NCBI GenBank assembly: GCA_015060255.1
Contig: SUYV01000006.1
Span: 1 to 57,891 of the forward strand
Origin: Bacteroidales bacterium
Lineage (GTDB): Bacteria; Bacteroidota; Bacteroidia; Bacteroidales; UBA932
Length of the DNA stretch: 57,891 nucleotides
Direction of reading: 5' to 3'
Below the pieces are notes generated by a model. That model saw only the letters and a program-made list of their open reading frames with translations, was not told the DNA's origin and searched no databases. Made by a program: the position numbers and the translations under genes. This document shows, piece after piece, positions 3,314 through 32,318 of this stretch (position 1 is its first letter; each line of letters starts with the position of its first letter).

Positions 3314-3318
3314 ATAAG

Positions 3319-3864: not shown

Positions 3865-3865
3865 G

Positions 3866-6679: not shown

Positions 6680-6715
6680 AATCCTTAATGCTATTAATTG
6701 GAGTGTTTCAACCAA

Positions 6716-6723
6716 CAAAAATA
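6716..6723 (-). promoter_or_regulatory. Candidate -7 element of the restriction operon promoter
   Basis: TATTTTTG on the minus strand matches the Bacteroidota -7 consensus TAnnTTTG and lies about 37 nt upstream of the chosen hsdR start. No clear TTTG -33 box is seen, so the promoter is likely moderate or regulated. Confidence 0.5.
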
Positions 6724-6848
6724 ACAATTTTTCCGTAGCCGATGTGCTGGGTAGGGATTTTATTTCTATCTTTATGGTCGTTAACCGCCAATCGGATAAC
6801 GAATTAAAAGCAGAAAGGAGAAGATTTTTTATAATTGCGCGATATACA

Positions 6849-6937: not shown

Positions 6938-7532
6938 ATGAAACATGTTATTTTCTCATGCCGTCTGATTGAGTCGGCAAAGTGCCAAGGCACACCGGCA
7001 GCCGAAGATTACGCAACGCAGTTTGAGGAGTTTTCCGGCATCGCAAGGAATATCCTCATGAGTGATGCTGGCTATCTTGCCATTGCAGAGATTCTTGATG
7101 AGACTCTCGGAATCCTTGAAGAAGCCGTCAGGAGCAAAAAAAAATCCTGCGCTTAACTCGTATCTGAAGCAGGCGTGTCGCAAGACCCGACTCTTCATCA
7201 ACAAAAACGACCTGCGACTTACTTCTCCGGAGTTATTCACTCCATTGCAGCCACCTGCAGTAATCAAGTCTCCACTGCATTGGGAAGCGAACAAGGCTGA
7301 CCTCTATGAGCTGCTCATCGCCTTCGACAGTCTCGGCATAATCACTGAGGACGGAGTCAAAGCTCCGTTCACCCATCTTGTGCGTGAATTCTCACGCGCA
7401 GTAAACATTCCTTTTGACCCAGAGTGCCACAATGAGCGCAAGAGAATCCTCAATCGCTCGACCCGTAAAACGGTCTTCATTGACAGATTGAAAAGGGATG
7501 GATTCAAAATTGATGAAAATTTTTCCTACTGA
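6938..7532 (+). CDS. RteC-like regulator split between two frames at an A9 tract
   Basis: Two overlapping frames together make an RteC-like protein of about 197 residues. The first frame (6938-7156) gives an acidic helical N-terminus. The second frame carries, from NPALNSYLKQ onward, the RteC hallmark region (LHWEANKADLYELL, an acidic helix, then RKTVFIDRLK). The frames meet at nine A residues, 7136-7144. Loss of one A, or a +1 shift or transcriptional slippage there, would join them. RteC controls excision genes in CTnDOT-type elements, so a regulatory role in this element is inferred. It could equally be a mutated gene or a base-call error. In the second frame the residues before the A tract do not look like protein of this family. 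Confidence 0.6.
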
Positions 7533-7637
7533 TTTCTAACATCTTACAAAAATAAACCTCCCCAGTCGTGAGGCGACCCGTCTTGAATGGAGTTGTTCAA
7601 GTGAAGACCTTTGCCATCGGATTTAAGCAAGAATACG

Positions 7638-7967
7638 ATGGAACTCGACCAGATATTGAACGACCTGCAGACCTCATTGGATGTAGTCCAATCGAAGCTC
7701 AATATGCTCAAGACCGTACAGACAGGAAAGCTGTATGAAGTGGATATTCTCATGACTAGAAAGGAGGCTGCATACTTCATCAATAAGTCCACGCGACAGC
7801 TTGACCGTCTATGCGATGAGCGTAAAATCAAACGCGAGTACATAGACGGGGCTGTCCGCATCCGGAGGAGTTCGCTGCTTGAATACTTGGGAGTGGAGGT
7901 AAGACCGCTTGCCAGCAAGACAAAACCGATGTCCGAGTTCGACAGGATATTCAACAAATATCATTAG
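7638..7967 (+). CDS. Helix-turn-helix protein (excisionase/MerR-type fold)
   Basis: The ATG at 7638 is preferred over an upstream TTG at 7611. The 109-residue protein has an N-terminal coiled segment (1-25) and a helix-turn-helix domain at about 38-88, with TRKEAAYFINKSTRQLDRL, then the wing-like KIKREYIDGAVRIRRSSLLEYL. This is the fold of helix_turn_helix_17 proteins, which includes excisionases. It is followed after 2 nt by the DnaD-like gene, so it belongs to the early operon. It could be the excisionase for the integrase at 30.7-32.0 kb or a regulator of replication; nothing in the sequence decides. Confidence 0.75.
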   Translation: MELDQILNDLQTSLDVVQSKLNMLKTVQTGKLYEVDILMTRKEAAYFINKSTRQLDRLCDERKIKREYIDGAVRIRRSSLLEYLGVEVRPLASKTKPMSEFDRIFNKYH

Positions 7968-9774: not shown

Positions 9775-9830
9775 GAAAGGAGGTAAACATGGATTAGAAT
9801 CAACATTGACAATCGGACTTGAGGGATGCG

Positions 9831-9908
9831 ATGGCGGAAAAAGTCACTATCGTGGTTGCAAGCACACGAGCCTCCATCCCTCTTGGTATTCATTCAACAG
9901 AATTATAA
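9831..9908 (+). CDS. Possible 25-residue peptide coupled to the recombinase gene
   Basis: An ATG at 9831 opens 25 codons (beginning MAEKVTIVVAST) whose TAA overlaps the ATG of the XerC/D-like gene by one base (TAATG). That overlap is the same coupling seen at two other gene pairs in this prophage (17946 and 19923). The peptide has no recognisable domain. A further 40 nt upstream, at 9789, a strong AAGGAGG precedes ATG-GAT-TAG, a two-codon frame. Either may be a leader that sets recombinase translation, or chance. Confidence 0.3.
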   Translation: MAEKVTIVVASTRASIPLGIHSTEL

Positions 9909-10846
9909 TGAGAACAACTTTATCACTCAATCAGATAGTCGAACAATGGATTGCTGAAACCGATGCACTAGAAGCAACACGCAAGGACTATCGCAGAAAA
10001 ATAAGTCTATGGTTCAGATGGCTCAAATCTCGTGGCTCAGACCCAAGAATGCCCAGCCGAGCAGATGTTATTGACTACAAGAATCAACTGCTGTCGTCCG
10101 GCAAAAGCAGGTTTACGGTCAACGGATATGTGACTGTCGTCAAGATATTCTATGCGTGGTGCGAAGGTAAACGGTACTATGACAATATCTCGCTGGGAAT
10201 CAAGAGCAGCAACAAGCAGAAGGAGTATTACAAGCTCCCACTCTCGCGTAAACAGGCTTCTGACCTTGTGGAGAGTATAGACACCAGCACCATAATCGGC
10301 AAACGGGACAAACTCATGATAATGCTGATGCTTAGTAACGGACTGCGTTCATGCGAGGTACAGAGGATAGACATCAAGGACTTCGACATGATGGATGGAG
10401 AGATGATACTTCATATCCAAAGGAAAGGCAGCACTGATAAGCACGACACAGTGGTCATATCAAACGAAGTGGCAGAACTATTTGAGGACTACATCTCCAG
10501 CAAGAAAGAGTATGAGATTGATGATGCATTGTTCACCAGCCATATGCGTGGAGTAAAGAATGAGAGAATCAACCGCGAGACCATCAGTTTTATTATCAAA
10601 CGAAGGCTTAGAGCAATAGGAATAGACGACCCGAAGATAACAGCACACTCACTCCGCCACACCTGTGGGTCTCTGATGATTGAGCAGGGATATGACCCAC
10701 AACTCATACAAGATATGCTGGGGCATACCGACCCAGCGACCACGAGAATCTATACCAATATGGCTAGGCAAAAGAGGCTTTTTGAGTCAGCACCAAGCAA
10801 GAGATTATCCAGCATTCTGACTAAAAAATCGAAAAAGAAGAAGTGA
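9908..10846 (+). CDS. XerC/XerD-like tyrosine recombinase in the replication module
   Basis: This 312-residue recombinase has a SAM-like core-binding domain (about 5-95) and a catalytic domain with all six expected residues: R147 (NGLRSCE), K173 (QRKGS), H247-x2-R250 (HSLRHT), H273 (LGHTD) and Y282. It lacks the N-terminal arm-binding domain of the other integrase (30688-32010). It could resolve multimers of the phage genome or be a second integration enzyme. The start at 9908 (MRTTLSLNQ) is chosen over 9806, because the extra 34 residues are low in structure and overlap a possible leader peptide. Confidence 0.88.
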   Translation: MRTTLSLNQIVEQWIAETDALEATRKDYRRKISLWFRWLKSRGSDPRMPSRADVIDYKNQLLSSGKSRFTVNGYVTVVKIFYAWCEGKRYYDNISLGIKSSNKQKEYYKLPLSRKQASDLVESIDTSTIIGKRDKLMIMLMLSNGLRSCEVQRIDIKDFDMMDGEMILHIQRKGSTDKHDTVVISNEVAELFEDYISSKKEYEIDDALFTSHMRGVKNERINRETISFIIKRRLRAIGIDDPKITAHSLRHTCGSLMIEQGYDPQLIQDMLGHTDPATTRIYTNMARQKRLFESAPSKRLSSILTKKSKKKK

Positions 10847-11178: not shown

Positions 11179-11676
11179 ATGGCAAAAGGAGGAAAAGCAA
11201 TATCAGACAATGACAAAAGACTCAGAGGAACAGACCAGCCTTGCAGGATGACGGAATCCAATCTTCCGGCTACGATATCCTGCAATTCATCACTTCAGAC
11301 ACTTCCCCGAAGCGGATTGAAAGGGACAGCCAAGAAGGTCTATATGATTGTAGGGACAGAACTGTTCAACAGAGGAATCTTGGATACACTCGGACTTGAC
11401 TTGGTCATCGCCTATTGCCGAGAGATGGGGCTGTATCATGACATGATGCGAGAACTTGAAAAAGAAGGCATGACCATAAAAGTCGAGAGCAAACATGGCT
11501 ATATAACACAAGTCAACCCCAAAAGGAAGATTGCGGAGAGTGCCTTGGCAGCAGCCAAAGGGCTGGCTTCAGACTTCGGTCTTACCCCTACCTGCAGAGC
11601 AAGAGTATTGTCTCTTGTAGCGAATGCTGTCAAGAAAGACGACTTTGCAGATTTTGAAACAATAGATGAACAATAA
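11179..11676 (+). CDS. terS: Terminase small subunit (P27 family)
   Basis: The 165-residue protein resembles P27-type small terminases: a disordered basic N-terminus (1-50), then GTAKKVYMIVGTELFNRGIL and a helical core ending in the typical NPKRKIAESALAAAKGLASDFGLTP segment (about 110-145). Small terminase binds the packaging site and hands DNA to the large subunit. The gene is the first of the structural run and its end overlaps or abuts terL. Confidence in the function is high because of position and the conserved C-terminal segment. Confidence 0.88.
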   Translation: MAKGGKAISDNDKRLRGTDQPCRMTESNLPATISCNSSLQTLPRSGLKGTAKKVYMIVGTELFNRGILDTLGLDLVIAYCREMGLYHDMMRELEKEGMTIKVESKHGYITQVNPKRKIAESALAAAKGLASDFGLTPTCRARVLSLVANAVKKDDFADFETIDEQ

Positions 11677-11677
11677 C

Positions 11678-13351
11678 ATGGCAGTAACGAAACAACATCC
11701 GGCAGAGACATACGCTCAGCAGGTACGCACTGGTAATATATTGACCTGCGAATTTGTGCAGCTTGCCGTTGACAGGTATTACCGCGACATGGACAATGCC
11801 CTAGACAAAGGCTGGTACTTTGACCGCAAGGCTGCTCAAAGAGCGATCAGTTTCATTGAAAGGCTCAAGCATACCAAAGGACAATGGGCTGGATTAAGAT
11901 TCAAGCTAGAGCCTTGGCAGCAGTTCATAATCTGGAACATCTTTGGCTGGAAGATGGCAGACGGCACTCGCAGATTCCGCTACGCCTATGTAGAGATTGC
12001 CCGTAAGAATGGCAAGACCGCCCTCTCAGCAGGAATCGGGTTGTACATGCTGTTTGCTGACGGAGAATCCCGTCCGGAGGTATATTCTGCTGCCACTGTC
12101 AAAGACCAAGCGAGGATATGCTTTTCAGATGCAGTGGAGATAGTCAAGGCGACAGACCTCAAGAACTATCTGACCACATACCGCAATTCCATCGTCTATG
12201 AACTTAAAGGAGGTATGATGAAGCCTCTGTCGTCAGACTATGGAACACATGACGGTCTGAACCCTTCCTGTGGAATCATCGATGAGTTCCACGCGCACAA
12301 AGATTCCGGAATGTTCGATGTGATAAAGTCTGCTTTCGGAGCGAGAAAACAGCCTCTCATGTTCATAATCACCACTGCCGGATTCAACAAAGCCGGAGCA
12401 TGCTATGCATACAGGGACAATGTAATCAAGATTCTGCGTGGCATCAACGAGGACGACACCTTGTTCGGAATCATATACACGATGGACGCAAACGAGGAAT
12501 GGGACAATCCTCAAATGTGGATTAAGTCCAACCCTAATCTCGGTGTCTCGCTATTCCCGAACTACCTCGAAGACCAAGTGAACGATGCCAAAAACCGTCC
12601 GGAGGCAGTGCGTAATGTGATGACCAAGAATGTAAACCTTTGGGTTGATGCTGAAAAGACATGGATACTTGATGACGCGTGGATGAAGTGTGTCGGCACA
12701 ACAGAGATTGAAGACCTGCGAGGATGCGAGTGCTGGGGTGGTCTCGACCTTTCCAATGTATCGGACATCACTGCATTTGTCTTGATATTCCATGAGAATG
12801 ACAAGTTCCAACTGCTGCCCTTCTTTTGGATTCCGGAGGAGAAAATGCTGGAAAAGATTAGAAAAGAGAACATCAACTACGACCTGTGGGTCAAGGCTGG
12901 CTTCGTAAAAGTCACATCAGGCAATGTGCTTGACTATGAATTTGTCAAAGCAGACATCCTGCAGATTGTTGAAATTTATGACCTGCAATCCTCAGCCTAC
13001 GACAGGTGGAACTCCAGCCAGACCATCATAGACCTTCAGAATGAAGGGATGGAATGCAACCCATTCGGGCAGGGCTATGGGTCTATGTCTGCCCCAAGCA
13101 AGGAGTTTGAGAAATTAGTTCTCAGCGAAAAGATTGAACACTTCGGTAATCCGGTACTGCGCTGGATGCTCTCTTCTACACTCATCAAGACCGACCCAGC
13201 CGGAAACATAAAGCCGGACAAAGAGAAATCAGTGCAAAAGATTGACGGAATCGTTGCATCCATAATGGCTCTCGGAGAATGGATGACCGCACAGGCAGAA
13301 GATGACAACGACCCATACAGCAAACGAGGGATGCTGAGTTTTAATGATTAA
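11678..13351 (+). CDS. terL: Terminase large subunit
   Basis: The packaging motor cuts concatemers and pumps DNA into the prohead. From MAVTKQH at 11678 (1 nt after the terS stop; an ATG at 11666 is the alternative) the protein is about 557 residues. The ATPase part shows a deviant Walker A ARKNGKT at about 108-114 and Walker B IIDE at about 200-203. The C-terminal RNaseH-like nuclease starts near residue 330 with GLDLSNVSD and has acidic residues downstream. This is the terminase_1/YmfN architecture that pairs with P27 small subunits. Confidence 0.95.
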   Translation: MAVTKQHPAETYAQQVRTGNILTCEFVQLAVDRYYRDMDNALDKGWYFDRKAAQRAISFIERLKHTKGQWAGLRFKLEPWQQFIIWNIFGWKMADGTRRFRYAYVEIARKNGKTALSAGIGLYMLFADGESRPEVYSAATVKDQARICFSDAVEIVKATDLKNYLTTYRNSIVYELKGGMMKPLSSDYGTHDGLNPSCGIIDEFHAHKDSGMFDVIKSAFGARKQPLMFIITTAGFNKAGACYAYRDNVIKILRGINEDDTLFGIIYTMDANEEWDNPQMWIKSNPNLGVSLFPNYLEDQVNDAKNRPEAVRNVMTKNVNLWVDAEKTWILDDAWMKCVGTTEIEDLRGCECWGGLDLSNVSDITAFVLIFHENDKFQLLPFFWIPEEKMLEKIRKENINYDLWVKAGFVKVTSGNVLDYEFVKADILQIVEIYDLQSSAYDRWNSSQTIIDLQNEGMECNPFGQGYGSMSAPSKEFEKLVLSEKIEHFGNPVLRWMLSSTLIKTDPAGNIKPDKEKSVQKIDGIVASIMALGEWMTAQAEDDNDPYSKRGMLSFND

Positions 13352-13354
13352 GTC

Positions 13355-13630
13355 ATGAGACGGAGAAAGAATACACCGGAGCAAGTGCAGTTCCGACAGG
13401 AAATACTACAGAAGATTGCAACCCAGCCACCTCTGTCCGAGGAACTGCGAGACCTTCAAACTACAGAGGGATTCTATCATCTGTACACACAGATTCGTTT
13501 ATGCTATCCGAACAACATAGAGGCATACGAAGCCATCGAAGAAGAGTATATCCGCATATTCGGTCACCGGAAATACTCTGAATATGATTCATTCCGGTCT
13601 TCCATGACGCAGAAAATGTCAAGAAAGTAA
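13355..13630 (+). CDS. Conserved-looking small phage protein of unknown function
   Basis: I do not recognise this 91-residue basic protein. It is mostly predicted helix, with a Gln/Glu-rich start, a central EELRDLQTTEGFYHLY segment and a Ser/Arg/Lys end. It begins 3 nt after terL and is the last gene before a promoter region, so it is transcribed with the terminase genes. A packaging accessory is possible but unsupported. Confidence 0.65.
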   Translation: MRRRKNTPEQVQFRQEILQKIATQPPLSEELRDLQTTEGFYHLYTQIRLCYPNNIEAYEAIEEEYIRIFGHRKYSEYDSFRSSMTQKMSRK

Positions 13631-13631
13631 C

Positions 13632-13682
13632 TTTAACCGTAAGAATGTTTCCGTTAAAACCTTTAGCCGACCCTTATGTTTG
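13632..13682 (+). promoter_or_regulatory. Candidate activator-dependent late promoter (copy 1, before portal)
   Basis: A dyad TTTAAC (13632-13637) - N15 - GTTAAA (13653-13658) lies 17 bp (counted from GTTAA) upstream of TATGTTTG (13675-13682), a perfect -7 element. No TTTG -33 box is present. The same arrangement with identical spacing occurs at 23830-23880. The dyad probably binds a phage activator. Confidence 0.65.
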
Positions 13683-13707
13683 CACCGGTTATTAAACAGA
13701 AACTACG

Positions 13708-14952
13708 GTGTCAAATTTTCTTTCAAAAATTCTTGCTTTCAATCGTGGAGAGAAGCGGACTTCATCTGCAGAGTTCGAGGCTGCCGTCAATGCAGCACTT
13801 CTCTCCGACACCGTTTCCGGAATCACCAAGAAACCATATATCAGCGAAGAGGGCTCTCTGAATCTGTCAGCAGTCTGGGCTTGTGTCCGTATATTGTCAG
13901 AAACTGTCGGCACTCTTCCAATACATCTTTACCGCAAGACTGACAAAGGTCGTGAGCAGGTAAGGCAGCATCCATGCAGCCTTATTCTCTCATTACCCAA
14001 TTCATACACCTCCCGATTCTCGCTGCTCCATCACCTTATGGTCTCATGTACGCTTTGGGGCAATGGATATGCGAGAATCTATCGCGACCCGATGTTCCGT
14101 CCTGTAAGGCTCCAACTACTGCATCCCACGCAGGTAGAGCCGATTCTGACGGACGATGACATACTCTTCTATCGCACTGACAAAGGCGAGCTACTTCCAA
14201 GTCATGAGATGCTGCATCTGAGAGGGTTATCCACGAATGGCTACAAGGGTAAAAGTCCGATTGCTGTCCATCGTGATAACCTCTCTCTTACAGCATCAGC
14301 ACAGCAATATGGAGAAAAATTCTTCAACCAAGGAGGTAATATGTCCGGAGTCTTCAAGTATCCATCCACACTTAAGCCGGAGGCATATAAAAGGCTCAAG
14401 CATGACCTTATTCAACAGTCAGTAGGTCTTCATAATGCACACACGCCTCTGCTTTTGGAGGGTGGCATGACATACGAACGCATCAGCATTCCTCCGGAGG
14501 ACGCACAGTTTATCGCTACAAGAAAGTTTCAGAAAACGGAGATTGCCACCATCTATGGAGTACCGCCACACATGATTGCTGACCTTGAAAGAGCCACCAA
14601 CAACAATATTGAGCATCAAGGAATGGAGTTCGTCCAATACTGCCTCATGCCATATCTGGTGCGCCTTGAAGAGGAATTCAACCGCAAACTCCTGCGCCAT
14701 GACGAATTCGGAGAATACTACTTCCTCTTCGGTCTCAACGGACTCCTGCGAGGAGATGCCAAGACCCGAAGTGAATACTACAAGAACATGAATCTCATAG
14801 GAGCCTTGAGTGCCAACGAAATCCGCGCCCTTGAAGACATGAATTCATACGAAGGCGGTGACGAATACTTCGTGCAGGCAAATATGCAGACTGTTGAGAA
14901 CGCCCAATCCATAAACACCGATACAAATGAGCCAAAAGAAACAGAAAAATAA
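13708..14952 (+). CDS. HK97-family portal protein
   Basis: The portal forms the 12-subunit ring through which DNA enters and leaves the capsid. The 414-residue protein uses a GTG start 26 nt after the candidate late promoter -7 box. Landmarks include the conserved AVWACVRILSETVGTLP region (about 50-67), LWGNGYARI (about 111-119), and a clip/stem segment with TEIATIYGVPPHMI (about 272-285). Length matches the HK97 family. It overlaps the protease gene by 26 nt, as often seen when head genes are co-translated. The short leader leaves little room for a ribosome site, and none is visible. Confidence 0.93.
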   Translation: MSNFLSKILAFNRGEKRTSSAEFEAAVNAALLSDTVSGITKKPYISEEGSLNLSAVWACVRILSETVGTLPIHLYRKTDKGREQVRQHPCSLILSLPNSYTSRFSLLHHLMVSCTLWGNGYARIYRDPMFRPVRLQLLHPTQVEPILTDDDILFYRTDKGELLPSHEMLHLRGLSTNGYKGKSPIAVHRDNLSLTASAQQYGEKFFNQGGNMSGVFKYPSTLKPEAYKRLKHDLIQQSVGLHNAHTPLLLEGGMTYERISIPPEDAQFIATRKFQKTEIATIYGVPPHMIADLERATNNNIEHQGMEFVQYCLMPYLVRLEEEFNRKLLRHDEFGEYYFLFGLNGLLRGDAKTRSEYYKNMNLIGALSANEIRALEDMNSYEGGDEYFVQANMQTVENAQSINTDTNEPKETEK

Positions 14953-15577
14953 CGAGCCGATAGAAGTAAGAAGCGATGTCTCAGACCTGCACATTGAGCA
15001 GCGTAGTCAGTCTGATACAAATAGTCGTACTATCGTGGGATATGCAGCAAAATTTGAACGCTGGTCTGACCCTATAATGGGATGGTTCAAAGAGCAAATT
15101 GCTCGTGGGGCATTCTCCGAAACGGATGTGGACGATGTCATCATGTGCTTCAATCATGATGTGAATTCCATTCTAGCAAGAACGACCTCCGGAACTCTTA
15201 AACTTACTACGGACGATATAGGTCTCCGCTTTGAATTTGACGCTCCGGACACGACCCTCGGAAACGACATCCTTGAGCTCGTCCGAAGAGGAGACATCAG
15301 CAAATGCTCATTCAAGTTCAAAGTGGATAAAGACCAGTGGCGATATGCCGATGAGGAGAACGGACTTGAATATGACGAGCGCACCATCGAACACATATCA
15401 AAGGTCATCGATGTCTCACTCGTTGTATTTCCTGCCTACAAGGACACAGAAGCATCTGTCCGCGAGCTGGAAGAGCGCAAGGCAGAATGGCTTAAATCTC
15501 AAGAGCCACAATCAGTCACACTGAACACATCGTCAAGAGACAGACTCTTGCAATTTCTTAATCTTAAAAATCTATAA
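14927..15577 (+). CDS. HK97-family prohead protease
   Basis: This serine protease matures the capsid by removing the scaffold part of the major capsid protein. In the 216-residue sequence the likely catalytic pair is H77 (CFNHDVN) and S128 (SKCSFKF), in the spacing typical of prohead proteases, with VSLVVFPAYKDT near 165-176 completing the fold. The end is polar. It lies between portal and capsid genes in the standard HK97 order and starts inside the portal gene. Confidence 0.93.
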   Translation: MSQKKQKNNEPIEVRSDVSDLHIEQRSQSDTNSRTIVGYAAKFERWSDPIMGWFKEQIARGAFSETDVDDVIMCFNHDVNSILARTTSGTLKLTTDDIGLRFEFDAPDTTLGNDILELVRRGDISKCSFKFKVDKDQWRYADEENGLEYDERTIEHISKVIDVSLVVFPAYKDTEASVRELEERKAEWLKSQEPQSVTLNTSSRDRLLQFLNLKNL

Positions 15578-15580
15578 GTT

Positions 15581-16765
15581 ATGCCAAAACTAAAACAACT
15601 GAAAGAGAAAAGGGCATCGGTCTATTCACAGATTGATGAACTTCGCAAGGCTGCTGATGGTCGCGAAATGACCGCAGAGGAGCAGGCAAGATGGGACACT
15701 CTCCTTGCCGACTACACAAAGGCAGACAAGGCAGTGGAAGCGGAGGAACGCTTCGTTGAAATCCACCGCAAACAGGCGGAAACTGTATCGCAGCGCACTG
15801 AAGGTGTTAATGCTGAAGACGAGTACAGAAGTGCTTTCCGCGATTATCTTCTGCATGGAGCACAAGGCATATCCGCTGAGCAGAGGGCAATCTTTGAAAG
15901 CAGAGACACTTTGCAGGGACTCTCTGCCGGAGTTCTTATTCCATCCACCCTTGCATCAAGTATTGAGAAAGCTCTCAAGAGTTATGGTGGTATGTTTGAA
16001 GCCGGAAGCATCATCACGACAAGCAACGGTGGCGACCTCATCATGCCGACCATCAACGACACCTCTGCCAAGGCTACGATTGTAGCAGAATATGCTCAGT
16101 CCAGCAAGCGCACCCCATCATTCGGCTCGGTCACCCTCAAGGCGTTCACCTACCGCACTCCAATCATTCCGGTATCGCAGGAACTTCTGCAGGACTCCGC
16201 CTTCAATCTGGACACACTGCTCAGCGAACTCCTCGTTGAAAGTTTCGGAAGAGGCATCAATGAGCATCTCACAACTGGTAGCGGAAGCGGTCAGCCAAAG
16301 GGAATCGTCACTGCAGCGACAGCATCCGCAGCAGAAGCAGCTGCAACTGCAATTTCTCTTGACAATCTGCTTGACCTCATCAAGGGCGTGGACAGTTCGT
16401 ATGCAAAGAACGGCAAGTTCATGTTCAACCGCAACACCCTCTTTGCCCTTGCTAAAATCAAGGATAATGAAGGACGCTACATTTGGCAGGACGGCACACG
16501 CACCGGAGCTCCATCTACACTCTTCGGAAAGAATTATGTCATAAACGATGACATGGCAGACATAGGAGCAGGAAACGCCTCTGTTCTGTTCGGAGACCTC
16601 AGCAAATACAAGATTCGCATGGTCAAGAACTTCCGAGTGATTAGACTCAACGAACTTCTTGCAGAGTATCTCTCTGTCGGACTCTTCGGCTTTGCGCGCG
16701 TGGACGGTACTCTCCTTGATGCCGGAACTCATCCTGTACAGAAACTTGTACACGCAAAATCATAA
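15581..16765 (+). CDS. HK97-fold major capsid protein with N-terminal scaffold domain
   Basis: The 394-residue capsid precursor has a charged coiled-coil delta/scaffold domain at about 1-90, a protease-sensitive region near 100-110 (before the SAGVLIPSTLASSI segment) and an HK97 core from about 115 to the end, including the E-loop and the P-domain helix region with LTTGSGSGQPKGI. Cleavage near residue 105 by the adjacent protease is inferred from the family. The gene starts 3 nt after the protease stop. Confidence 0.95.
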   Translation: MPKLKQLKEKRASVYSQIDELRKAADGREMTAEEQARWDTLLADYTKADKAVEAEERFVEIHRKQAETVSQRTEGVNAEDEYRSAFRDYLLHGAQGISAEQRAIFESRDTLQGLSAGVLIPSTLASSIEKALKSYGGMFEAGSIITTSNGGDLIMPTINDTSAKATIVAEYAQSSKRTPSFGSVTLKAFTYRTPIIPVSQELLQDSAFNLDTLLSELLVESFGRGINEHLTTGSGSGQPKGIVTAATASAAEAAATAISLDNLLDLIKGVDSSYAKNGKFMFNRNTLFALAKIKDNEGRYIWQDGTRTGAPSTLFGKNYVINDDMADIGAGNASVLFGDLSKYKIRMVKNFRVIRLNELLAEYLSVGLFGFARVDGTLLDAGTHPVQKLVHAKS

Positions 16766-18311: not shown

Positions 18312-18740
18312 ATGGCTGAAGCTGAAAAACAAGTCATTCAAGGAGAAGATATCATCCTTGTCATTGACAACCAACCGACATTACACGCCACAACCCACTC
18401 TTTGAAGGTGGACTTGGAGCTGAAAGACCTCCGTACCAAGGATACTAACGGCAAGGAGAAATGCGCTGGAGACATATCATGGAGTGTTGACGGTGACGGA
18501 CTCGTGGTCATCGACCCAAATCTCGCTGATTCCCACACTGCAGAAGATGTGCTGGCATTTGTTCTAGCCAAAAAGAAAGTTACTGCAGTATTGCGTTCTC
18601 CACTGAAAGGTCTGACAAAGACCTACAAAGGAGAGGCGTACATTACCTCATTCTCGCTGTCAACTCCAGCCGGAGACAACGCTACCTACTCTTATTCGCT
18701 CACCGGAAGCGGTGACCTCAAAGCAGAAGACCCCAACTAA
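18312..18740 (+). CDS. Major tail tube protein
   Basis: The 142-residue beta-rich protein has the features of siphovirus tail tube proteins of the TP901-1/phage_TTP type: an alternating N-terminal segment, a central GDISWSVDGDGLVVID loop, and a C-terminal YKGEAYITSFSLSTPAGDNATYSYSLTGSG segment, part of the conserved edge strand. It polymerises into the tail tube around the tape measure. Position before the chaperone genes supports this. Confidence 0.88.
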   Translation: MAEAEKQVIQGEDIILVIDNQPTLHATTHSLKVDLELKDLRTKDTNGKEKCAGDISWSVDGDGLVVIDPNLADSHTAEDVLAFVLAKKKVTAVLRSPLKGLTKTYKGEAYITSFSLSTPAGDNATYSYSLTGSGDLKAEDPN

Positions 18741-22224: not shown

Positions 22225-22797
22225 TTATAAATCTTCCATTGCTTGTTTCTTAACTCGCTCTGTATTTATCTTATCCCTATAACGCAGAATTACTCTACAC
22301 TCATAATTATTATATTCCATAGACAGTTCTATATCACCTTTATCTGTCTGAAAAGCGGATGCCCATGTACATCTATCCATACGCAGTTCATGCATTTTTC
22401 CATTTGCATCCCTTGGTTGAGAACCAGAGAATTCTTCTACAACGACAGCTGGCTCACCATATTTTTCCGTAAGCATAGTCTTAAAGAAATCATAATCGCC
22501 CTCTAAGTCAGACCATGTCTCTCGAACATTAAACATTACTCCTATCATGCTAACCACATTAAGTGGCTTAAGCGTATAGACCCCCACCATACAGTTCTTA
22601 TACCCAGCAAAATCGCCTTGCAATACAGCCACACCATCTTGCGTTCCGAGATGGGTAAAACCAGCAGTTTTCATTTTGGTCACAAACTCAGTTAATGTTC
22701 CATCAATTGGAACACCCTTAAAGGTAAGATGCTCTGATTGCGCCCATGCCATTAATGAGCAACAAGCAATTACAAATGTCAAAAATATCCGTTTCAT
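22225..22797 (-). CDS. Secreted protein of unknown function (prophage cargo)
   Basis: The 190-residue protein starts with a clear signal peptide (MKRIFLTF..., cleavage expected after MAWAQ at about residue 20). The mature part has repeated strand-turn patterns (LTFKGVPIDGTLTEFV, then GVMFNVRETWSDLEGDYDFFKTML) like chromosomal Bacteroidota exported proteins. Two Cys residues, in KNCMV and DRCTW, may pair. It lies 17 nt after the DUF4268 gene and probably shares its promoter. Exported lysogenic products can block superinfection; for this one that is only a suggestion. Confidence 0.75.
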   Translation of the reverse strand: MKRIFLTFVIACCSLMAWAQSEHLTFKGVPIDGTLTEFVTKMKTAGFTHLGTQDGVAVLQGDFAGYKNCMVGVYTLKPLNVVSMIGVMFNVRETWSDLEGDYDFFKTMLTEKYGEPAVVVEEFSGSQPRDANGKMHELRMDRCTWASAFQTDKGDIELSMEYNNYECRVILRYRDKINTERVKKQAMEDL

Positions 22798-22814
22798 AGT
22801 CGCTGAATTATATA

Positions 22815-23756
22815 TTATTTCATGTTCTTAACACGCGGTCTGAAGAAGTTGTGGAATTTCACCGTCATATGATAGAGCCATTCAAACTGTCTGCTCCAAT
22901 CACTCCTATCATGATAGTCTCCCGCAGTCTCGACTGAAATATAGCAAGACTTCTTATCATCTAGTCGAGACCATTCTATATCCATTGAAATATCTGTTCT
23001 AGACTCCTCAAATGAGGTTTCATATAACTTATCAAAGTTTGCCTTGGCATTGTTTGAGTCTAAGATAAAGTCCACAGCAACCATTGTTCTCTTGCGTCCT
23101 ACAACAGCCGAGAGGTGAGCTGCAGAAGTACCTATTGCCACATTCGTCCAATGCTGAGGAGAAGGTGACTGAGGCTTATAAGGAGTATTGGATTGTTTCA
23201 ATACATATTCACGATATGCAGTCCAGTATTCGAGTTTGAGTTTGTCTGTCTCGCTCAAATCCTCATTAACCTGCTTCTTGACACTCTTAGACCAGCCGTT
23301 TGGCTTTGCTACGACCTTGAAATTAGGAGCCACCGGACTATCTCCAATCTTGAAAAGCTGCACTTCAATAGCAAAGAAATTATAACTCTCATCCGTGATA
23401 GCATTGAGCCAGTCTACTGCTGCGCGATGCTCCTCGCGAATCTGAGAAGCAATCCAAATAAATGTGGAAGCTTGAAGTCCGGCACAATAAGTAATAACCT
23501 GTCCCAAATGAGAATGGTCTGTCTGCTCCAGCTGATTTTCAATTACTACATTCCTATTAGTCACGATATCCTTGCAGAGAATATCTGCACTGAAGGAGCC
23601 GACCTTCTCTTCTTTAGCGATTACCTCCAGCTCCATTCCAATGGCTTCTCCAAGGAGTTCGATGTTTTCAACTTCGGCAAGCCAAGGTGTAAAATCCTTC
23701 GCTTCATCCTTCCACTGATTTCTCAGTTCTACCTTCTCAAGTCGTGCAAGTTTCAT
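22815..23756 (-). CDS. DUF4268 protein with PD-(D/E)XK nuclease-like domain (prophage cargo)
   Basis: The 313-residue protein has an N-terminal nuclease-like core: D58 (SADIL), E73-N-Q75 (VIENQLEQ) and Q86 (HLGQVITY), a pattern seen in PD-(D/E)XK enzymes with Gln in place of the catalytic Lys. From about 180 onward is the DUF4268 domain (KLEYWTAYREYVL, a Ser/Pro-rich loop, then AHLSAVVGRKRTMVAVDF and a C-terminal WLYHMTVKFHNFF). Minus-strand placement, its own host-type promoter and a terminator mark it as lysogenic cargo. A defence nuclease is plausible but unproven. Confidence 0.8.
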   Translation of the reverse strand: MKLARLEKVELRNQWKDEAKDFTPWLAEVENIELLGEAIGMELEVIAKEEKVGSFSADILCKDIVTNRNVVIENQLEQTDHSHLGQVITYCAGLQASTFIWIASQIREEHRAAVDWLNAITDESYNFFAIEVQLFKIGDSPVAPNFKVVAKPNGWSKSVKKQVNEDLSETDKLKLEYWTAYREYVLKQSNTPYKPQSPSPQHWTNVAIGTSAAHLSAVVGRKRTMVAVDFILDSNNAKANFDKLYETSFEESRTDISMDIEWSRLDDKKSCYISVETAGDYHDRSDWSRQFEWLYHMTVKFHNFFRPRVKNMK

Positions 23757-23808: not shown

Positions 23809-23829
23809 TGGATTTGATGAAAAATAATT

Positions 23830-23880
23830 TTAACCGGAATAACCTTTCCGTTAAGTTCTATCCTCATGGTCTACCTTTAC
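23830..23880 (+). promoter_or_regulatory. Candidate activator-dependent late promoter (copy 2, before the tail gene)
   Basis: TTTAAC (23830-23835) - N15 - GTTAA (23851-23855), then exactly 17 bp, then TACCTTTA (23873-23880), one mismatch from the -7 consensus. Of the 26 dyad bases 22 agree with copy 1 at 13632. It lies 21 nt before the start of the 938-residue tail gene. Confidence 0.6.
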
Positions 23881-23901
23881 CGCCAGAGATAATGGTAGAA
23901 G

Positions 23902-26718
23902 ATGGCATACTTTGGACTGAAATATTATGCAGAGATGCGCTCAAAATATAAGGGCGTGATATGGCGAGTGGAAATAGCGGAGCGTGGCTTCATCGGTATA
24001 GCTGAGCAGATGGACTTTTCCGGAAGCAATCCGTTGAAAATCACATGGGAGAATCGTGGAGATGATTTCTTTGTTCCGGTAAAAGCCAGCGAAGCAAGCA
24101 TCACAGTCATGTGCCACAAAAACTTTCATTATATCAACCTGTTCACTTCCGACCCTAGAAAATATCGCGTGACAATATTTCGTAATGGAGGCTTCTATTG
24201 GCGTGGATTCATTACCGCAGACCTTTACTCTGAGTCTTTCTCTGCGCCTCCCTATGAGGTTACAATCAGAGCAGTTGACGGATTCAACATCCTATCCTCA
24301 ATTGACTTTTACGATGAATCTACTGCCTCCAAGACCGGTCTTCGCTCCCTTTATTCTTTACTTACGCCATGTATAGATGTGCTGGAGTTGGATATGAGCT
24401 TATGTGATTGGCTAGACTTATATGCAGAAGGCATGAGTGAATCAAGTTCCCCTCTCCGGCAGACATATCTCGATATGGAAATGTTATACTCGGTCTATGA
24501 GAATCCTACTTTTAGAGATGTGCTGGAACTGTGCCTACGACCATTCGCTGCGCAGATATTTCAGTCTGCTGGAGTGCTGAATATCAGGAGACTCCATTCC
24601 CTATATAGCGACAATCGTCCTGCAGCATTTTTTGCTCCGAACGAGAGCATTCCATCTGCTATCAGAACGACACATCAGTATATAAGGGTCATAACAGACG
24701 GAAAATGCCGAATCGCCAACCTGTTCAGAAAGCGCGATGTGCAGGATAATGCATGGGATGGTGCGATGTACATCATGGGAGACAATTCCACTTTGGAAAT
24801 CACCCCTCCCATCCGTAGTGTAAATGTCGCTGTGAAAAACAAAGAGATTGACGACCTAACAGACAAGCTAGGATTCTTTGACATCGACAATTGGTCTGAT
24901 GCCAATAATGCTCTCTCCTTTGGCGATAATAGAAGCCTGACAATCGGAGGAGACAACGACTACAAGGACACCATCATGCAGACTGCCGGATTTGATGTCA
25001 AGCAATGTAACTTCACCATCACATGGGAGTTTACCTTGAGAGCATTATACTCAGAACGCAGGTCTTCGACAGGAGGATACTATACTCCTCGTAGCACAGA
25101 GCCTCATACCTGCACTCTTAACTACGGCATAAAGGTGGTCGGCACAGATGCCACCTACTACCTTACTGCAGATGGCGCATGGGACACCTCGGAGGTCGAT
25201 GTGTGTTCCTCTGTGGATACCGGTACAGATGAGAATATAAAAATAGAGATTGACGGCATCCCTATCAATGGGAAACTGATATTCTACATCCGGCAGACTC
25301 TTGGCGGAGACTGGTACACATATAGCGGAGGACGACAGAGCGGACAGACAGTAGGGTCGCAAGAAGGCATGATGTTCTTCAATATGAGAATGAGCATAAA
25401 TGCAGATGAGTTTTATGACAATGGCTTAAGCATCAACACTATTGTCAATCCTGCCAACAACATAGACATGAGCATATCGCTCCCTGTCAGTGACATTCCG
25501 GCTATCCCTAACGACACTCTGATATTCACTCTGTATTTCCTCCACGCAGACAAGAATCCGACCCGTCTATGGCATACCAAGGGCAAGGAAGACTACATGA
25601 ATCTTGTAGAACACATGACCCTCGGAGCATTGAAGTTCCGGCAGACTCCTTCCCACAAACTTTCAGCCGAGATTCTTTCAGCATTGCACCTTGACCTCAA
25701 CTCCGTTCTGCTGGATAAGAAGTTTCTCAACGCTGGATTCTTTATCAATTCAATCGAAGTCGATGCTCTTGTTGACACACATGAATGTGAAATGGTCGAA
25801 CTACCCAAGCTGCTTCAAGTAGAAGCTCCATTGGATGGGGACGATTGCATCGCCATGAAAGTCTTTGTCGAAAAGTGTGAGCAGTGTATCAGATGCTTGA
25901 ACTTTCTGATTATAAAGATGGAGTCCGGAAAATTATATTGCTTTGATGTATTGACAAAAGGTATGACCCTACTCTATGAAGACGATGAATCATACGATAT
26001 CTTCCCTGCTGAAAACGGATATGTAAGGGCACATCAGACCGAGGCTTTCTATTGCGACTATCGTGGCAAAGTCCGAAAGACTCTCGATATTCCTACGACT
26101 TATGCTGGATTTATAACCGTCAGAGATGGTGAATGGTGGGTACTATGCCAATACACAGGAAGATATGACTCCAAATACATGGTCTTTTCGCGTCCGGAAA
26201 TAAAGACCACATATACAAGGGTTGCTGGCACAGCGAGAGCATCGAATATTCTGGTCTATATGTACGGAACATTCAAGCATGCCATAGTAGAAAAGAATCA
26301 GATTGTCATAAACACGACTTCTGCCTGTTATGTCTATGACAACCGTTATCACACAGCACCTAATGTATTCAAGGTATCTGACTACGACCAAATAGTAGCA
26401 ATCAATGATGATTACTTCATTCTTGCCGGAAGTGACGACACCTTAAAATGCTGCCACAGGGACACTCTGACCACTTACACAGAAAGTGAAAGCTTCGGAG
26501 AATACGCATACCATGCTGCCCTGTCGCAGACCAAATTCGTGACCGTTCTAGACAACGCAGCCCTGCATGACATCAAGACATTGGATAGTTATTATATCCA
26601 TAATCATGTCGGGCAATACGAGGAAATCATTGATGTATTCTTCATCTACGGAGACCTCTATCTGGTGCAGACAAACGGTATTTTCAAATTCATACAGGAA
26701 GTCACAGAAACATCTTAA
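23902..26718 (+). CDS. Large tail protein, probably distal-tail/receptor-binding
   Basis: The 938-residue protein starts with a short beta segment (KGVIWRVEIAERGF) and a region (about 30-130) reminiscent of distal-tail domains, with YRVTIFRNGGFYWRGFI. The middle is beta-rich and holds Gly/Ser/Thr loops such as RQSGQTVGSQEG. The last 310 residues or so repeat a strand pattern of about 40-50 residues with motifs like KLYCFDVLTKG, WWVLCQYTG and DDYFILAGSD, suggesting a beta propeller. Such a domain at a tail tip would suit receptor binding. It is the only very large non-tape-measure tail gene, and sits before the tape measure rather than after it. Function is inferred from size, position and pattern. 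Confidence 0.7.
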   Translation: MAYFGLKYYAEMRSKYKGVIWRVEIAERGFIGIAEQMDFSGSNPLKITWENRGDDFFVPVKASEASITVMCHKNFHYINLFTSDPRKYRVTIFRNGGFYWRGFITADLYSESFSAPPYEVTIRAVDGFNILSSIDFYDESTASKTGLRSLYSLLTPCIDVLELDMSLCDWLDLYAEGMSESSSPLRQTYLDMEMLYSVYENPTFRDVLELCLRPFAAQIFQSAGVLNIRRLHSLYSDNRPAAFFAPNESIPSAIRTTHQYIRVITDGKCRIANLFRKRDVQDNAWDGAMYIMGDNSTLEITPPIRSVNVAVKNKEIDDLTDKLGFFDIDNWSDANNALSFGDNRSLTIGGDNDYKDTIMQTAGFDVKQCNFTITWEFTLRALYSERRSSTGGYYTPRSTEPHTCTLNYGIKVVGTDATYYLTADGAWDTSEVDVCSSVDTGTDENIKIEIDGIPINGKLIFYIRQTLGGDWYTYSGGRQSGQTVGSQEGMMFFNMRMSINADEFYDNGLSINTIVNPANNIDMSISLPVSDIPAIPNDTLIFTLYFLHADKNPTRLWHTKGKEDYMNLVEHMTLGALKFRQTPSHKLSAEILSALHLDLNSVLLDKKFLNAGFFINSIEVDALVDTHECEMVELPKLLQVEAPLDGDDCIAMKVFVEKCEQCIRCLNFLIIKMESGKLYCFDVLTKGMTLLYEDDESYDIFPAENGYVRAHQTEAFYCDYRGKVRKTLDIPTTYAGFITVRDGEWWVLCQYTGRYDSKYMVFSRPEIKTTYTRVAGTARASNILVYMYGTFKHAIVEKNQIVINTTSACYVYDNRYHTAPNVFKVSDYDQIVAINDDYFILAGSDDTLKCCHRDTLTTYTESESFGEYAYHAALSQTKFVTVLDNAALHDIKTLDSYYIHNHVGQYEEIIDVFFIYGDLYLVQTNGIFKFIQEVTETS

Positions 26719-27540: not shown

Positions 27541-29802
27541 ATGAGCAGACGAATTGCCGACCTACTGATTAAGATTGGAGCAGACTCCTATGAGTTTCAG
27601 CAGAAGGCACAGGCTGTAGAGAAAGGACTTGGCTCATTGGACAAGAAGTTGTCTTCTCTCGGCAAGTCCTTGTCTCTCAAGCTTACCGCACCGCTTACTG
27701 CATTAGGAGCAGTCGCTCTCAAGAATGCAGATACACAAGTGCAAGCGGAAAGTCGTCTGATGAATGCACTTGGAGGACGAACTGACATTCAGCAGAGACT
27801 GCTGACGCAGGCATCTGAAATCCAATCGCGTTCAGTCATTGGAGATGAAGCCATCATAGCCCAGCAAGCCTATCTTGCATCTCTTGGGATGACTGAGTCG
27901 CAGATTAAAGATGTAATAGAAGCATCAGTTCAGTTGTCCTCAGCCACAGGAATGACCCTCGAAAGCGCGGTAAAAAATCTCGCAAAGACATTTGGCGGTC
28001 TGACCGGAGAACTTGGAGAGAGCATTCCCAAACTCAAGGAACTCACAACAGAGCAACTCAAAAGCGGTGAAGCAGTCAAGTTTGTCCTTGAGAACTACAA
28101 GGGATATGCAGAAACGGCTGCAGATAATGGAACGGGCGCAATAAAGCAGTTACAGAATGCGTGGGGAGACTTCCTTGAGCAGGTCGGTGCTGCCATTATG
28201 CCTATGGCAAATAAAATCGCCAATGCTTTATCTGTAGTTGTAACCGCCATGCAGCGCATCTCTCCGGAGGGAATGAAAATCATTGTCGTGATTGGAGGAA
28301 TCGCAGCAGCAATTGCACCCCTATCTCTTGGTATCTCCGGCATTATCAAAATGATGCCGATGCTGGCTTCCGGATTGACAGCACTGCTATCTCCTGTGGG
28401 ACTTGCTGTAACTGCAATATTAGCACTTGGTGCAGCCTTCCTATATGCCAAGCAGCAGAAAGACTCCATGATTCAAGATATGACCAATGAATTCGAGGGA
28501 CTTTCTTTAAGGACATTGGAGAGCAGATTGAGAGAGAATCGTAGGCTGCAGGCTGTAAATGAAAATGAGTCGCCTTGGCAGGGACAATCCATTGCATCCA
28601 AGGTTACCTATGCACTAAACAAAGGTGACCGGAGAAGAGCATTGGAAATGGAAGAGCAGGCACTGGTTGCTGCAATTGCCAAAAGTAAGAAGGCAATCGA
28701 GGACAGAGCAAAAGCCGAAGCGGATGCCAAGGCAATCCAAGACCAGATGAATCAAGCCATCGCTGGAACAAACACTCAGATTCAGCAGGAAGGTGGACTC
28801 ATCAATGAACTCACAAAGAAGATTTCCGAACTTGAGAAAAAGAAACTGCTTCCGGAGAGTACCATAGAGGATATCGCTGCGTATAATGCAGAAATAGCCG
28901 AGTTGAAACAGAAACTGCAAAGACTCCAAAACATAACACCGGAGCAGCTGAGACCGCGAGAAAACATTGAGCCATTGGCAGCACTGCCACCAATCAAGGC
29001 TCCAGCACTTGTTGTGGAGCCACTAGACCTCAAGCCAGTCATGTCTAAATACAGCGCACAAATGGCGCAGATTTACGACTATGTGCGCAACGGATTGATG
29101 GGATGGGCGGATGATACTTCCGATTATTTGAGCGAAAATGTGGCGGATATTACAGCCATTGTGCAGACCCACACAGAGGCTCTTGTTGCAAAAGGCTACA
29201 ACTTTGAAACTGCGCTTGAAGAGGTCTATTCGCGAATGGGACAGGTCATGCAGAGTTTCGACCAGCAGGTAGGAAAATTCCTGACCGACAGCATTGTCGC
29301 TGCAGCAGATGCCATAGGTCAGATAATCACCGGAGACCTCGGATTCGGTGGACTCATGAAAGCCATACTCACTCAGTTTGCAACATTTCTCAAGAATATC
29401 GGAGCGCAACTCATCGAGTTCGGAGTCATGATTATAGGCTTTAAGAGTGCTTTGAAATCCGTCCTAGCAAATCCTTGGGCAGCAATTGCCATCGGTGCTG
29501 CAATGGTCACTGCTGCAGCTATCATGACTGCTTTGATAAACAAAAGCGCACAGCAGAGTGTTCCAGCACTCGCCAATGGCGGTCTCGCTTTCGGGGCGAC
29601 ATATGCTATGGTTGGGGACAACCCCAATGCCAGCGTTGACCCAGAGGTCATTGCTCCGCTTTCGAAGTTGAAATCAATGCTGCCATCAGCCGGAGCGCAA
29701 GAGATAAAAATATCTCTCGGAGGTCAACTGACCGCCAAGGGAAGAGACCTAGTCTATGTGCTGGGGAAAGAGAACTATAAAACCACTATATTGGGAGGAT
29801 AA
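27541..29802 (+). CDS. Tail tape measure protein
   Basis: The 753-residue protein has the tape-measure layout: an N-terminal coiled coil, a TP901-type core (about 50-220: KNADTQVQAESRL, SQIKDVIEASVQLSSATGM), two or three hydrophobic segments (about 240-305), a long coiled-coil stretch (about 330-470), and a second hydrophobic region near 600-680. It sets tail length; at about 0.15 nm per residue a tail near 110 nm is expected. Its start follows the endolysin candidate by 3 nt. Placement after the large tail gene is unusual. Confidence 0.93.
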   Translation: MSRRIADLLIKIGADSYEFQQKAQAVEKGLGSLDKKLSSLGKSLSLKLTAPLTALGAVALKNADTQVQAESRLMNALGGRTDIQQRLLTQASEIQSRSVIGDEAIIAQQAYLASLGMTESQIKDVIEASVQLSSATGMTLESAVKNLAKTFGGLTGELGESIPKLKELTTEQLKSGEAVKFVLENYKGYAETAADNGTGAIKQLQNAWGDFLEQVGAAIMPMANKIANALSVVVTAMQRISPEGMKIIVVIGGIAAAIAPLSLGISGIIKMMPMLASGLTALLSPVGLAVTAILALGAAFLYAKQQKDSMIQDMTNEFEGLSLRTLESRLRENRRLQAVNENESPWQGQSIASKVTYALNKGDRRRALEMEEQALVAAIAKSKKAIEDRAKAEADAKAIQDQMNQAIAGTNTQIQQEGGLINELTKKISELEKKKLLPESTIEDIAAYNAEIAELKQKLQRLQNITPEQLRPRENIEPLAALPPIKAPALVVEPLDLKPVMSKYSAQMAQIYDYVRNGLMGWADDTSDYLSENVADITAIVQTHTEALVAKGYNFETALEEVYSRMGQVMQSFDQQVGKFLTDSIVAAADAIGQIITGDLGFGGLMKAILTQFATFLKNIGAQLIEFGVMIIGFKSALKSVLANPWAAIAIGAAMVTAAAIMTALINKSAQQSVPALANGGLAFGATYAMVGDNPNASVDPEVIAPLSKLKSMLPSAGAQEIKISLGGQLTAKGRDLVYVLGKENYKTTILGG

Positions 29803-32010: not shown

Positions 32011-32032
32011 CTTGATAGTTATTAAACAGTTA

Positions 32033-32064
32033 CAAAAGTATTTTGTCTCAAGATGCTGCACAAT
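32033..32064 (-). promoter_or_regulatory. Integrase promoter
   Basis: On the minus strand TTG (32061-32063), 20 bp, then TACTTTTG (32033-32040) matches the Bacteroidota consensus and lies 22 nt upstream of the integrase start. Confidence 0.6.
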
Positions 32065-32091
32065 AGCGGAAGTGGACGACTTCTTACAAAT

Positions 32092-32228
32092 GGTAGTCAA
32101 ATCATAGACGCAGTAACCTATCGCTGTTTTCCGGATTTCCGGTTACGATTTGGATACCGATGGTTACAATCTGGTAACTATTTTTGACTACATTCTGTCT
32201 TTATCAGATAGTCAAAAGGTAGTCAGAA
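32092..32228. repeat. Candidate attachment-site arm repeats
   Basis: Four copies of a GTAGTCA-like heptamer occur at 32093-32099, 32185-32191 (inverted), 32209-32214 (ATAGTCA form) and 32219-32225. Between them two direct repeats GGTTAC[G/A]AT[T/C]TGG lie at 32141-32153 and 32162-32174, 21 bp apart, two helical turns. The set lies between the integrase gene and tRNA-Ser and covers most of the non-coding stretch 32011-32318. Confidence 0.5.
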
Positions 32229-32311: not shown

Positions 32312-32318
32312 TTTGCTG

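Follow-up and report, generated by a model that had tools for sequence, protein, structure and literature searches.

In class-II activation, as carried out by lambda CI at OR2 and by CRP, the site of the dimeric activator is centred near -42. RteC of CTnDOT, a regulator of a Bacteroides mobile element, binds an inverted repeat that lies ahead of the promoter on which it acts. In phages, several unrelated families fill the role of late regulator, among them staphylococcal Ltr/RinA and Alt of lactococcal TP901-1, and direct repeats form the binding regions of both Ltr (four, upstream of P23) and Alt (-76 to -32), as described in the available text of PMC13123087. Phage Mu relies on C, a dimeric activator that is needed at four late promoters and whose site overlaps the -35 at one of them (available text of PMC4461284). 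Herein, we describe a stretch of 57,891 nucleotides from a Bacteroidales bacterium (contig SUYV01000006.1, assembly GCA_015060255.1; hereafter, the window) that holds a prophage with two matched inverted repeats, or dyads, each placed at the same distance from a predicted -7 box and ahead of a block of virion genes. It appears probable from comparison with related phages that these are matched late promoters, the dyads of which would be bound by the product of a small phage gene, c9 (13355..13630, forward strand), and that both blocks would thereby be switched on jointly.

The predicted activator resembles each of the above systems in some respects and departs from all of them in others. Lambda CI and CRP have other folds and work with another sigma factor, and here the spacing is counted from the Bacteroidota -7 box. 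A relative of RteC is encoded in these phages, but c9 itself has no RteC match, and the RteC-like phage protein fails to track the dyad. The gene position and the role proposed for c9 are those of the staphylococcal Ltr proteins (PMC13123087, in part); however, in contrast to the direct repeats of Ltr and Alt, the c9 system has a single inverted dyad with its central base at -42, found at two to four promoters in phages of Bacteroidota, and c9 has 91 residues versus ~130 for Ltr-type regulators (PMC13123087, in part). Unlike Mu C, c9 lacks a match to the Mor/C family, and the available text of PMC4461284 makes no mention, for Mu C, of matched dyads that diverge from phage to phage.

Copy 1 reads TTTAACCG-N8-TTTCCGTTAA at 13632-13657, followed after 17 bp by TATGTTTG at 13675-13682; in copy 2, the dyad lies at 23829-23854 and is followed, again after 17 bp, by TACCTTTA at 23872-23879. 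The two dyads share 22 of 26 bases. An initial annotation, made from the letters of the window, had pointed to this pair, and the identical spacing, the likeness of the dyads and the location of copy 1 upstream of the portal gene (13708..14952, forward strand; PHROG portal, E 2.7e-119) all held on inspection, as did the site and the spacings of copy 2, except that copy 2 starts at 23829 instead of 23830, and the spacer in the motif proposed for testing is N8, not N10. With one base added, each dyad becomes a 27-mer with a central base (13632..13658, centred at 13645, and 23829..23855, centred at 23842, both on the forward strand), and the 27-mers agree in 22 positions, compared to 7, 10 and 10 of 27 for stretches shifted by -40, -27 and +27. 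Dyad 1 has 10 of 13 complementary pairs and dyad 2 has 8 of 13; since at least 10 of 13 pairs occur at just 15 of ~57,850 centres in the window, dyad 1 is unusual by itself and dyad 2 is not. The shared pattern TTTAACNGNAAN5TTNCNGTTAA, with up to three mismatches, matches only these two sites in the window, each on both strands, while shuffles gave a mean of 0.07 matches and none of 100 reached four. A looser pattern had 10 matches in the window, which is the level of chance. In the 2.05 Mb of its own genome, TTTAAC-N15-GTTAA-N17-TA occurs twice, both times here, and its reversed control has no occurrence.

Relatives were gathered as 51 portal loci from viral contigs and 19 loci of the terminase large subunit (TerL) from genomes, of which 26 and 8, respectively, were scanned for the box. 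TAnnTTTG is present within ~300 bp upstream of the portal gene in 34/34 of the scanned loci, and the dyads before it vary (TGTAAAC-TCG-GTTTACA, TGACC-GAT-GGTCA, GTGCGACAATGTCTCAC, TGAACATTGTTCA, GGAGTAATTTACTAC and others). What is shared is the distance. In 16 portal-upstream regions (the window and 15 relatives, two of which, L072 and L074, carry nearly one dyad), 101 of 144 base pairs are complementary about a centre 30.0 bp before the box; at 95 other offsets in the same regions, complementarity averages 26% and never exceeds 37.5%, and 2000 mononucleotide shuffles yielded at most 58 of 144 complementary pairs. Within a range of 20 to 44.5 bp, 30.0 is the best or tied best centre in 15 of the 16 regions, being merely tied among several centres at 5/9 in L075 and L076; it is not the best in L087. 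Inspected by eye, the half-sites have a loose TGTYTCAC core in common, and the dyads look like one diverging family.

The same distance recurs outside this set. Eight further loci have both c9 and a portal gene (L116, L117, L124, L125, L126, L131, L187 and L188), and five of them show 6-8 of 9 pairs at 30, one (L188) with a dyad type already seen in L067; the three others have 5/9 (L187), 4/9 (L125) and 2/9 (L124, where the dyad seemingly lies one base nearer the box). Among 36 distant portal loci, some of them so short that c9 may be missed, a dyad with a box at 30 is present in 8 of the 10 that have c9 (E < 1e-9) and in none of the 26 others. These eight represent five dyad sequences, and four of the 36 loci (L190, L191, L192 and L194) are near-identical; L149 and L221, which are one place with a c9 match of just E 4.3e-6, were counted as lacking c9, as was L097 (0.0088). 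Over offsets of 20 to 41, the distant loci gave eight hits at 30, two at 31, one each at 23 and 34, and none elsewhere. The two loci that have c9 and were missed carry a dyad with TATAATTG at 31 (L094) and a dyad with CAAATTTG at 30 (L195). When each of 16 phages or fragments was scanned with its own 19-bp core, every match with up to three mismatches was a site with a box at 30 or the other strand of such a site (sites with four to six mismatches and no box were left unlisted), and the fuller phage records have two to four dyad-box sites each. In two distant phages, L095 (3433, 3472) and L096 (2273, 2312), an extra copy of the dyad stands 39 bp upstream of the promoter dyad.

The dyad sequence itself had been expected to recur in related phages. 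Besides near-identical copies, it was seen in L131 alone, where c9 is 60% identical to that of the window and a dyad of the window's type lies at 30; it is the layout that recurs instead. In the viral contigs, TTTAAC-N15-GTTAA-N17-TAnnTTTR matches 61 stretches, of which only L016, L038 and L045, near-copies of the window sites, reach six of seven core positions; L031/L048 reach five, and the remaining stretches look like chance. A looser palindrome matches 35 stretches there, with a box at 30 in the same three only. Because the dyad sequence diverges between phages, a scan of relatives for the exact dyad is misleading, and the window pair is, on these alignments, one case of a general layout in which the dyad sequence differs from phage to phage.

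Within a phage, on the other hand, the dyads match. The gene behind copy 2 (23902..26718, forward strand) encodes a 938-residue protein with matches to PHROG 30639 (unknown function, E 6.9e-19) and PHROG 23570 (virion structural protein, E 5.1e-10). A homologue is found in 11 of 17 related records, with upstream sequence present for 10, and nine of these 10 repeat their own portal dyad before it, with TACCTTTA or a similar box at 30; the repeat is weaker in G009. For 10 phages (the window and nine of the 11, omitting G016, a duplicate of G010, and G017, the match in which begins at a contig edge), the best match of the copy-2 dyad is the phage's own copy 1 in nine, and the mean match is 15.9 of 19 in the own phage versus 9.1 in other phages. 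The observed total was reached in none of 100000 permutations; for G003, with its three copy-2 promoters in tandem, the promoter that matched best was taken. A chance origin of the pair is thus rejected by the window shuffles, by the offset test on the 16 regions and by these permutations. In G009 and G004, the portal and copy-2 genes are on opposite strands of the record, and L118 has as its second core GTAGTAAATTACTCC, which is the first core in reverse complement, as expected for a symmetric site. Some phages have extra dyad-box sites: G003 has three in tandem, G004, L076 and L084 each have one downstream of the portal gene, and in L116 such a site precedes the capsid gene. L154 has three tandem dyad promoters (12404, 12473, 12538), each with TACCTTTA at 30, before one copy-2 gene. 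Since the dyads differ between phages yet match within a phage, whatever binds them is likely phage-specific and co-evolving. One activator for both blocks, as first proposed, is also suggested by the fixed 30-bp distance and by the joint change of the two dyads within phages.

Candidates for the binder were sought in the early operon common to 14 loci (which include the near-duplicate pairs L065/L115 and L092/L122). It comprises genes for an RteC-like protein (13/14), an HTH_17 protein (12/14), a replication protein, a DnaC-like protein, an HNH protein, a tyrosine recombinase, the terminase small subunit (TerS), TerL and c9. When protein identity was compared with dyad similarity in 10 phages that have all 10 families, the near-duplicates L064, L115 and L122 being omitted, c9 gave r 0.88 and the other families gave 0.36-0.71 (DnaC 0.71, TerL 0.53, portal 0.45). 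Given c9, every other family fell to -0.05 or less, whereas c9 retained 0.76-0.88 given any other. As co-evolving partners, the RteC-like, HTH_17, tyrosine recombinase, HNH, DnaC-like, replication, TerS, TerL and portal proteins thus all fall short of c9 in these 10 phages. With all available phages, c9 had r 0.72 (19 phages) and 0.64 after removing TerL; c12 (11 phages) had 0.50 and 0.29 on its own set, and the head protease (18 phages) 0.47 and 0.21. In a segment test with 18 phages, the last c9 helix (77-91) tracked the dyads best, with r 0.60, compared to 0.47 for the loop before it and 0.22-0.39 for the N-terminal arm and the other helices; identity in the last helix is low among these 18 phages, and its role as a recognition helix is only a hint.

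A natural swap favours c9. The dyad is the same in L119, L121 and L082 and different in L118, and the TerL proteins of these four phages are 96-99% identical. Within the dyad group, c9 identity is 79-96%, and to the c9 of L118 it is 34-40%; the portal protein follows neither grouping (92% for L118-L082, 75% for L119-L082). The DNA alignment of L118 and L082 runs through TerL, is broken over c9 and the dyad, and resumes at the -7 box. Some ~11 kb away, the copy-2 proteins of L118 and L119 are identical at 698 of 768 positions, the DNA alignment beginning at the -7 box and the upstream stretch with dyad 2 being unalignable, so this stretch changed too; the comparison at copy 2 covers L118 and L119. 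In some relatives, an insert lies between c9 and the dyad. In L117 (11685-13750; L213 15871), c9 is present twice in series, and behind each copy stands a dyad promoter of its own, the two dyads being different; two short inserted genes separate the first c9 from its dyad, and the second dyad recurs before the copy-2 gene. This arrangement may well be an activator relay.

The swap and the correlations also bear on the strongest alternative, that the promoters and dyads are as described but the activator is one of two other early phage proteins, the RteC-like one with a winged helix (6938-7532) or that of the HTH_17 type (7611-7967). RteC of CTnDOT itself binds an inverted repeat ahead of a promoter, and both proteins are DNA-binding candidates the genes of which are widely kept in the related loci, the RteC-like one matching PF09357 above the cut-off (E 4.3e-6) and the other matching PF12728 below it. 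Neither, however, follows the dyad: within the dyad group and to L118, respectively, identities are 24-58% and 27-39% for the RteC-like protein and 20-37% and 18-54% for the HTH_17 protein, and their correlations with the dyad of 0.42 and 0.36 become -0.30 and -0.05 given c9. We therefore consider this assignment unlikely.

c9 belongs to a family with no name. It has 307 relatives at E <=0.001, of which the best 120 were listed. The window member has an isoelectric point (pI) of 8.8; the median pI is 9.2, and 27 of 33 members, some of them partial, have a pI above 7. Window c9 matches nothing in Pfam or NCBIfam at E <=1, and its best PHROG match is at E 0.15. For the 33 members, the best stray matches were Pfam LptD (E 0.00095, four members), the AraR_C winged HTH (0.0095, one member), PHROG at 0.012 and NCBIfam at 0.098, all of which were taken as chance. 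An hmmscan of the 33 members against Pfam at E <=1 gave seven families, none of them Mor, and no RinA or Ltr family name appeared in the Pfam, PHROG and NCBIfam scans, in which the Ltr families are possibly unmodelled. PF09357 (RteC) does not match c9, while it does match the other phage gene. A sequence search of the PDB at E <=10 gave one match, at E 0.37. AlphaFold2 models of two members have five helices, with a predicted local distance difference test (pLDDT) score of 94.7; four small uncharacterised viral proteins share this fold at E 0.001-0.1. Among cultured phages, neither window c9 nor that of L192 has a match, and the window portal protein has no relative of >=60% identity in the phage collection. 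With L076 c9 as a query, tblastn gave a distant match at E 9e-4 in Cellulophaga phage phi39:1, namely gp08, which the c9 profile matched at E 6.6e-15 when run against this one sequence; its gene is located between those for TerL and the portal protein. This phage has a 6/8 dyad with TAGGTTTA at 30, which is weak evidence; its gp08 is annotated as hypothetical among many neighbours annotated from virion proteomics, which fits a non-structural role. The candidate for the new regulator type foreseen in the initial annotation is thus a protein without a known family, and its activator function is a prediction.

Several observations weigh against c9 as the partner of the dyad. In the fold search, the models had no PDB match at E 0.001, and among the insignificant rows were a response regulator and chains of the ribosomal large subunit and of sigma factors or initiation complexes; the predicted fold thus gave no support for DNA binding. 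DnaC equals c9 on its own set, with r 0.72 (12 phages) and 0.55 after TerL, and c19 reaches 0.80 in six phages, though 0.08 after TerL; when the set is enlarged to 18 phages, including three new ones, c9 taken as a whole protein correlates at 0.53. Dyads may be alike where c9 is unlike (85% vs 40% for L066/L072, 75% vs 40% for the window and L077), and c9 and the dyad are more than 2 kb apart in L076, L078 and L084. In the swap, DnaC (86 vs 73%) and the replication protein c0 (59 vs 55%) also split the groups, narrowly, and a single 2.25-kb DNA alignment of L118 and L119 (78%) spans c9 and dyad 1. The copy-2 dyad of G009 is not best matched by its own copy 1, and pairing at 30 is poor in L124 (2/9) and in L125, L187, L087, L075 and L076 (4-5/9). 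As c9 lies beside dyad 1, part of its tracking may be linkage; yet TerL and the portal gene are similarly close and track less.

As for the promoters, the Bacteroidota primary-sigma -7 element TAnnTTTG is matched by TATGTTTG, while TACCTTTA differs in its last base, and TAnnTTT[GA] is present in all 31 aligned promoters, which were chosen for it. The -7 element of Flavobacterium johnsoniae spans T-12 to G-5 and lies 4 or 5 nt before the start (PMC6847099, in the text available), and by this numbering the dyads are centred at -42, with starts expected near 13687 and 23884. The box at 13675..13682 (forward strand) would accordingly serve the predicted head-gene late promoter, with a start expected near 13687-13688, and that at 23872..23879 (forward strand) the second predicted late promoter, with a start near 23884-23885. 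The primary-sigma -33 element is missing: at -27 to -16 from the box, TTTG occurs in 1/31 and TTG in 6/31 of the promoters. That both window copies lack a TTTG box at -33 had been noted correctly; yet genome-wide promoter data from Flavobacterium likewise show only a weak -33 motif (PMC6847099, in part). The same text reports that G at -10 and -9 is virtually absent from Flavobacterium -7 elements; G is found at -9 in 18 of the 31 aligned boxes and at -10 in two, as counted by eye, with neither in TACCTTTA boxes, so that many of these boxes may be weak unaided.

These features suggest how the c9 system might work. c9 would be made together with the replication and terminase genes, would bind its own dyad as a dimer centred at -42, presumably the position of a class-II activator, and would touch host RNA polymerase there, replacing the -33 element. 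The structural genes would fire only once c9 has accumulated, both blocks of virion genes being switched on together. Each phage lineage would have its own pairing of c9 and dyad, with gene and dyad exchangeable as a cassette.

Another possibility is that c9, or another phage protein, acts as a repressor that covers the -33 region and so holds the late promoters silent during lysogeny. The dyad does overlap -33, the positional test cannot separate an activator from a repressor, and operators diversify between phage immunity groups. Nonetheless, c9 lies at the end of the replication-terminase operon, and not in a lysogeny block, a dyad centred at -42 is in the usual place of an activator, and little basal activity is expected of promoters in which the -33 element is so rare, though this element is weak in general (PMC6847099, in part); repression thus seems quite improbable. 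A further reading is a host regulator that would use the dyad and tie the late genes to host physiology: while the promoters use the host -7 box, the motif occurs in the host genome only at the two prophage sites, and the Alistipes prophages L118, L119 and L122 carry three different dyads, which makes this reading very hard to sustain. Equally hard to credit are non-regulatory dyads, serving as core sites for the intact-looking tyrosine recombinase (9806-10846) kept in all 14 loci or, given the nearness of dyad 1 to the terminase genes, as packaging sites, in view of the near-constant 30-bp distance to the -7 box, the two to four sites in fuller records, and four differences in the central 8 bases of the two copies, which disfavour strand exchange between them.

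The terminase small and large subunit genes (11179..13351, forward strand) lie directly upstream of c9, which begins 3 bp past the TerL stop and the stop codon of which is 1 bp upstream of dyad 1; the window TerL is identical to that of L114, a contig of a goat-rectum Bacteroidales metagenome-assembled genome. On the forward strand, the first late block opens with the portal gene and continues with the head protease and major capsid genes (14927..16765) and the tail tube gene (18312..18740; Pfam Phage_tail_2, PF06199), and the second opens with the gene for the 938-residue protein and includes the tape measure gene (27541..29802). A single switch for head and tail genes, as suggested at the outset, therefore agrees with two virion blocks but not with a clean head/tail split, the tail tube gene being in the first block. 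Between the late blocks, right before copy 2, are two opposite-strand genes (22225-23756), one of which is DUF4268 (PHROG 27742).

Elsewhere in the prophage, the internal tyrosine recombinase gene (9806-10846), just before the terminase genes, has no listed arm domain. A second tyrosine recombinase (30688-32100) is an integrase with an arm-binding domain and adjoins tRNA-Ser (32318-32403); the search for prophage ends gave no direct repeat of >=18 bases in 1-33500, and nothing useful matched the tRNA region. Directly left of the early genes, at 700-6727, lie type I restriction-modification genes (HsdR, HsdM) and a YhcG-like nuclease gene, which may belong to either the phage or the host. Ahead of the early operon, at 6767-6802, a TATCTTTA box and, behind it, the imperfect inverted repeat TCGTTAACC / GGATAACGA were read by eye, and the two look like an early promoter with an operator. 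In 6 of 8 loci (the window at 6938-7532, L092 at 2672, L119 at 5136, L121 at 4863, L123 at 4874 and L117 at 5213), the RteC-like gene is split into two overlapping open reading frames (ORFs), and the split falls at a run of exactly nine A, in place of which L065 and L115 have AAAAAAGGGGG. In five of the six, the window being the exception, the first ORF stops at a TGA directly after the run, and in all six the second ORF lies in the +1 frame; L118, L082 and L076 have one longer RteC-like ORF. This split may represent conserved programmed slippage.

Phage late activators are known, while the protein family, the host phylum and the co-divergence of dyads are new relative to the open-access literature matches listed; none of these matches concerns a late-gene activator of a Bacteroidota phage, most subscription journals being outside that coverage. 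On balance, we lean slightly toward a new structural class of phage activator, a five-helix protein that would act from a dyad at -42 as the late switch of Bacteroidota tailed phages, with a specificity that diversifies fast, gene and dyads exchanged as matched sets, and a relay in one prophage. If the c9 model is right, a nameless protein family would gain a function, and a simple sequence rule would locate late promoters in uncultured gut phages. The family would also supply natural protein-DNA pairs with diverged sites for studies of activator-site co-evolution, and orthogonal expression switches for Bacteroides.
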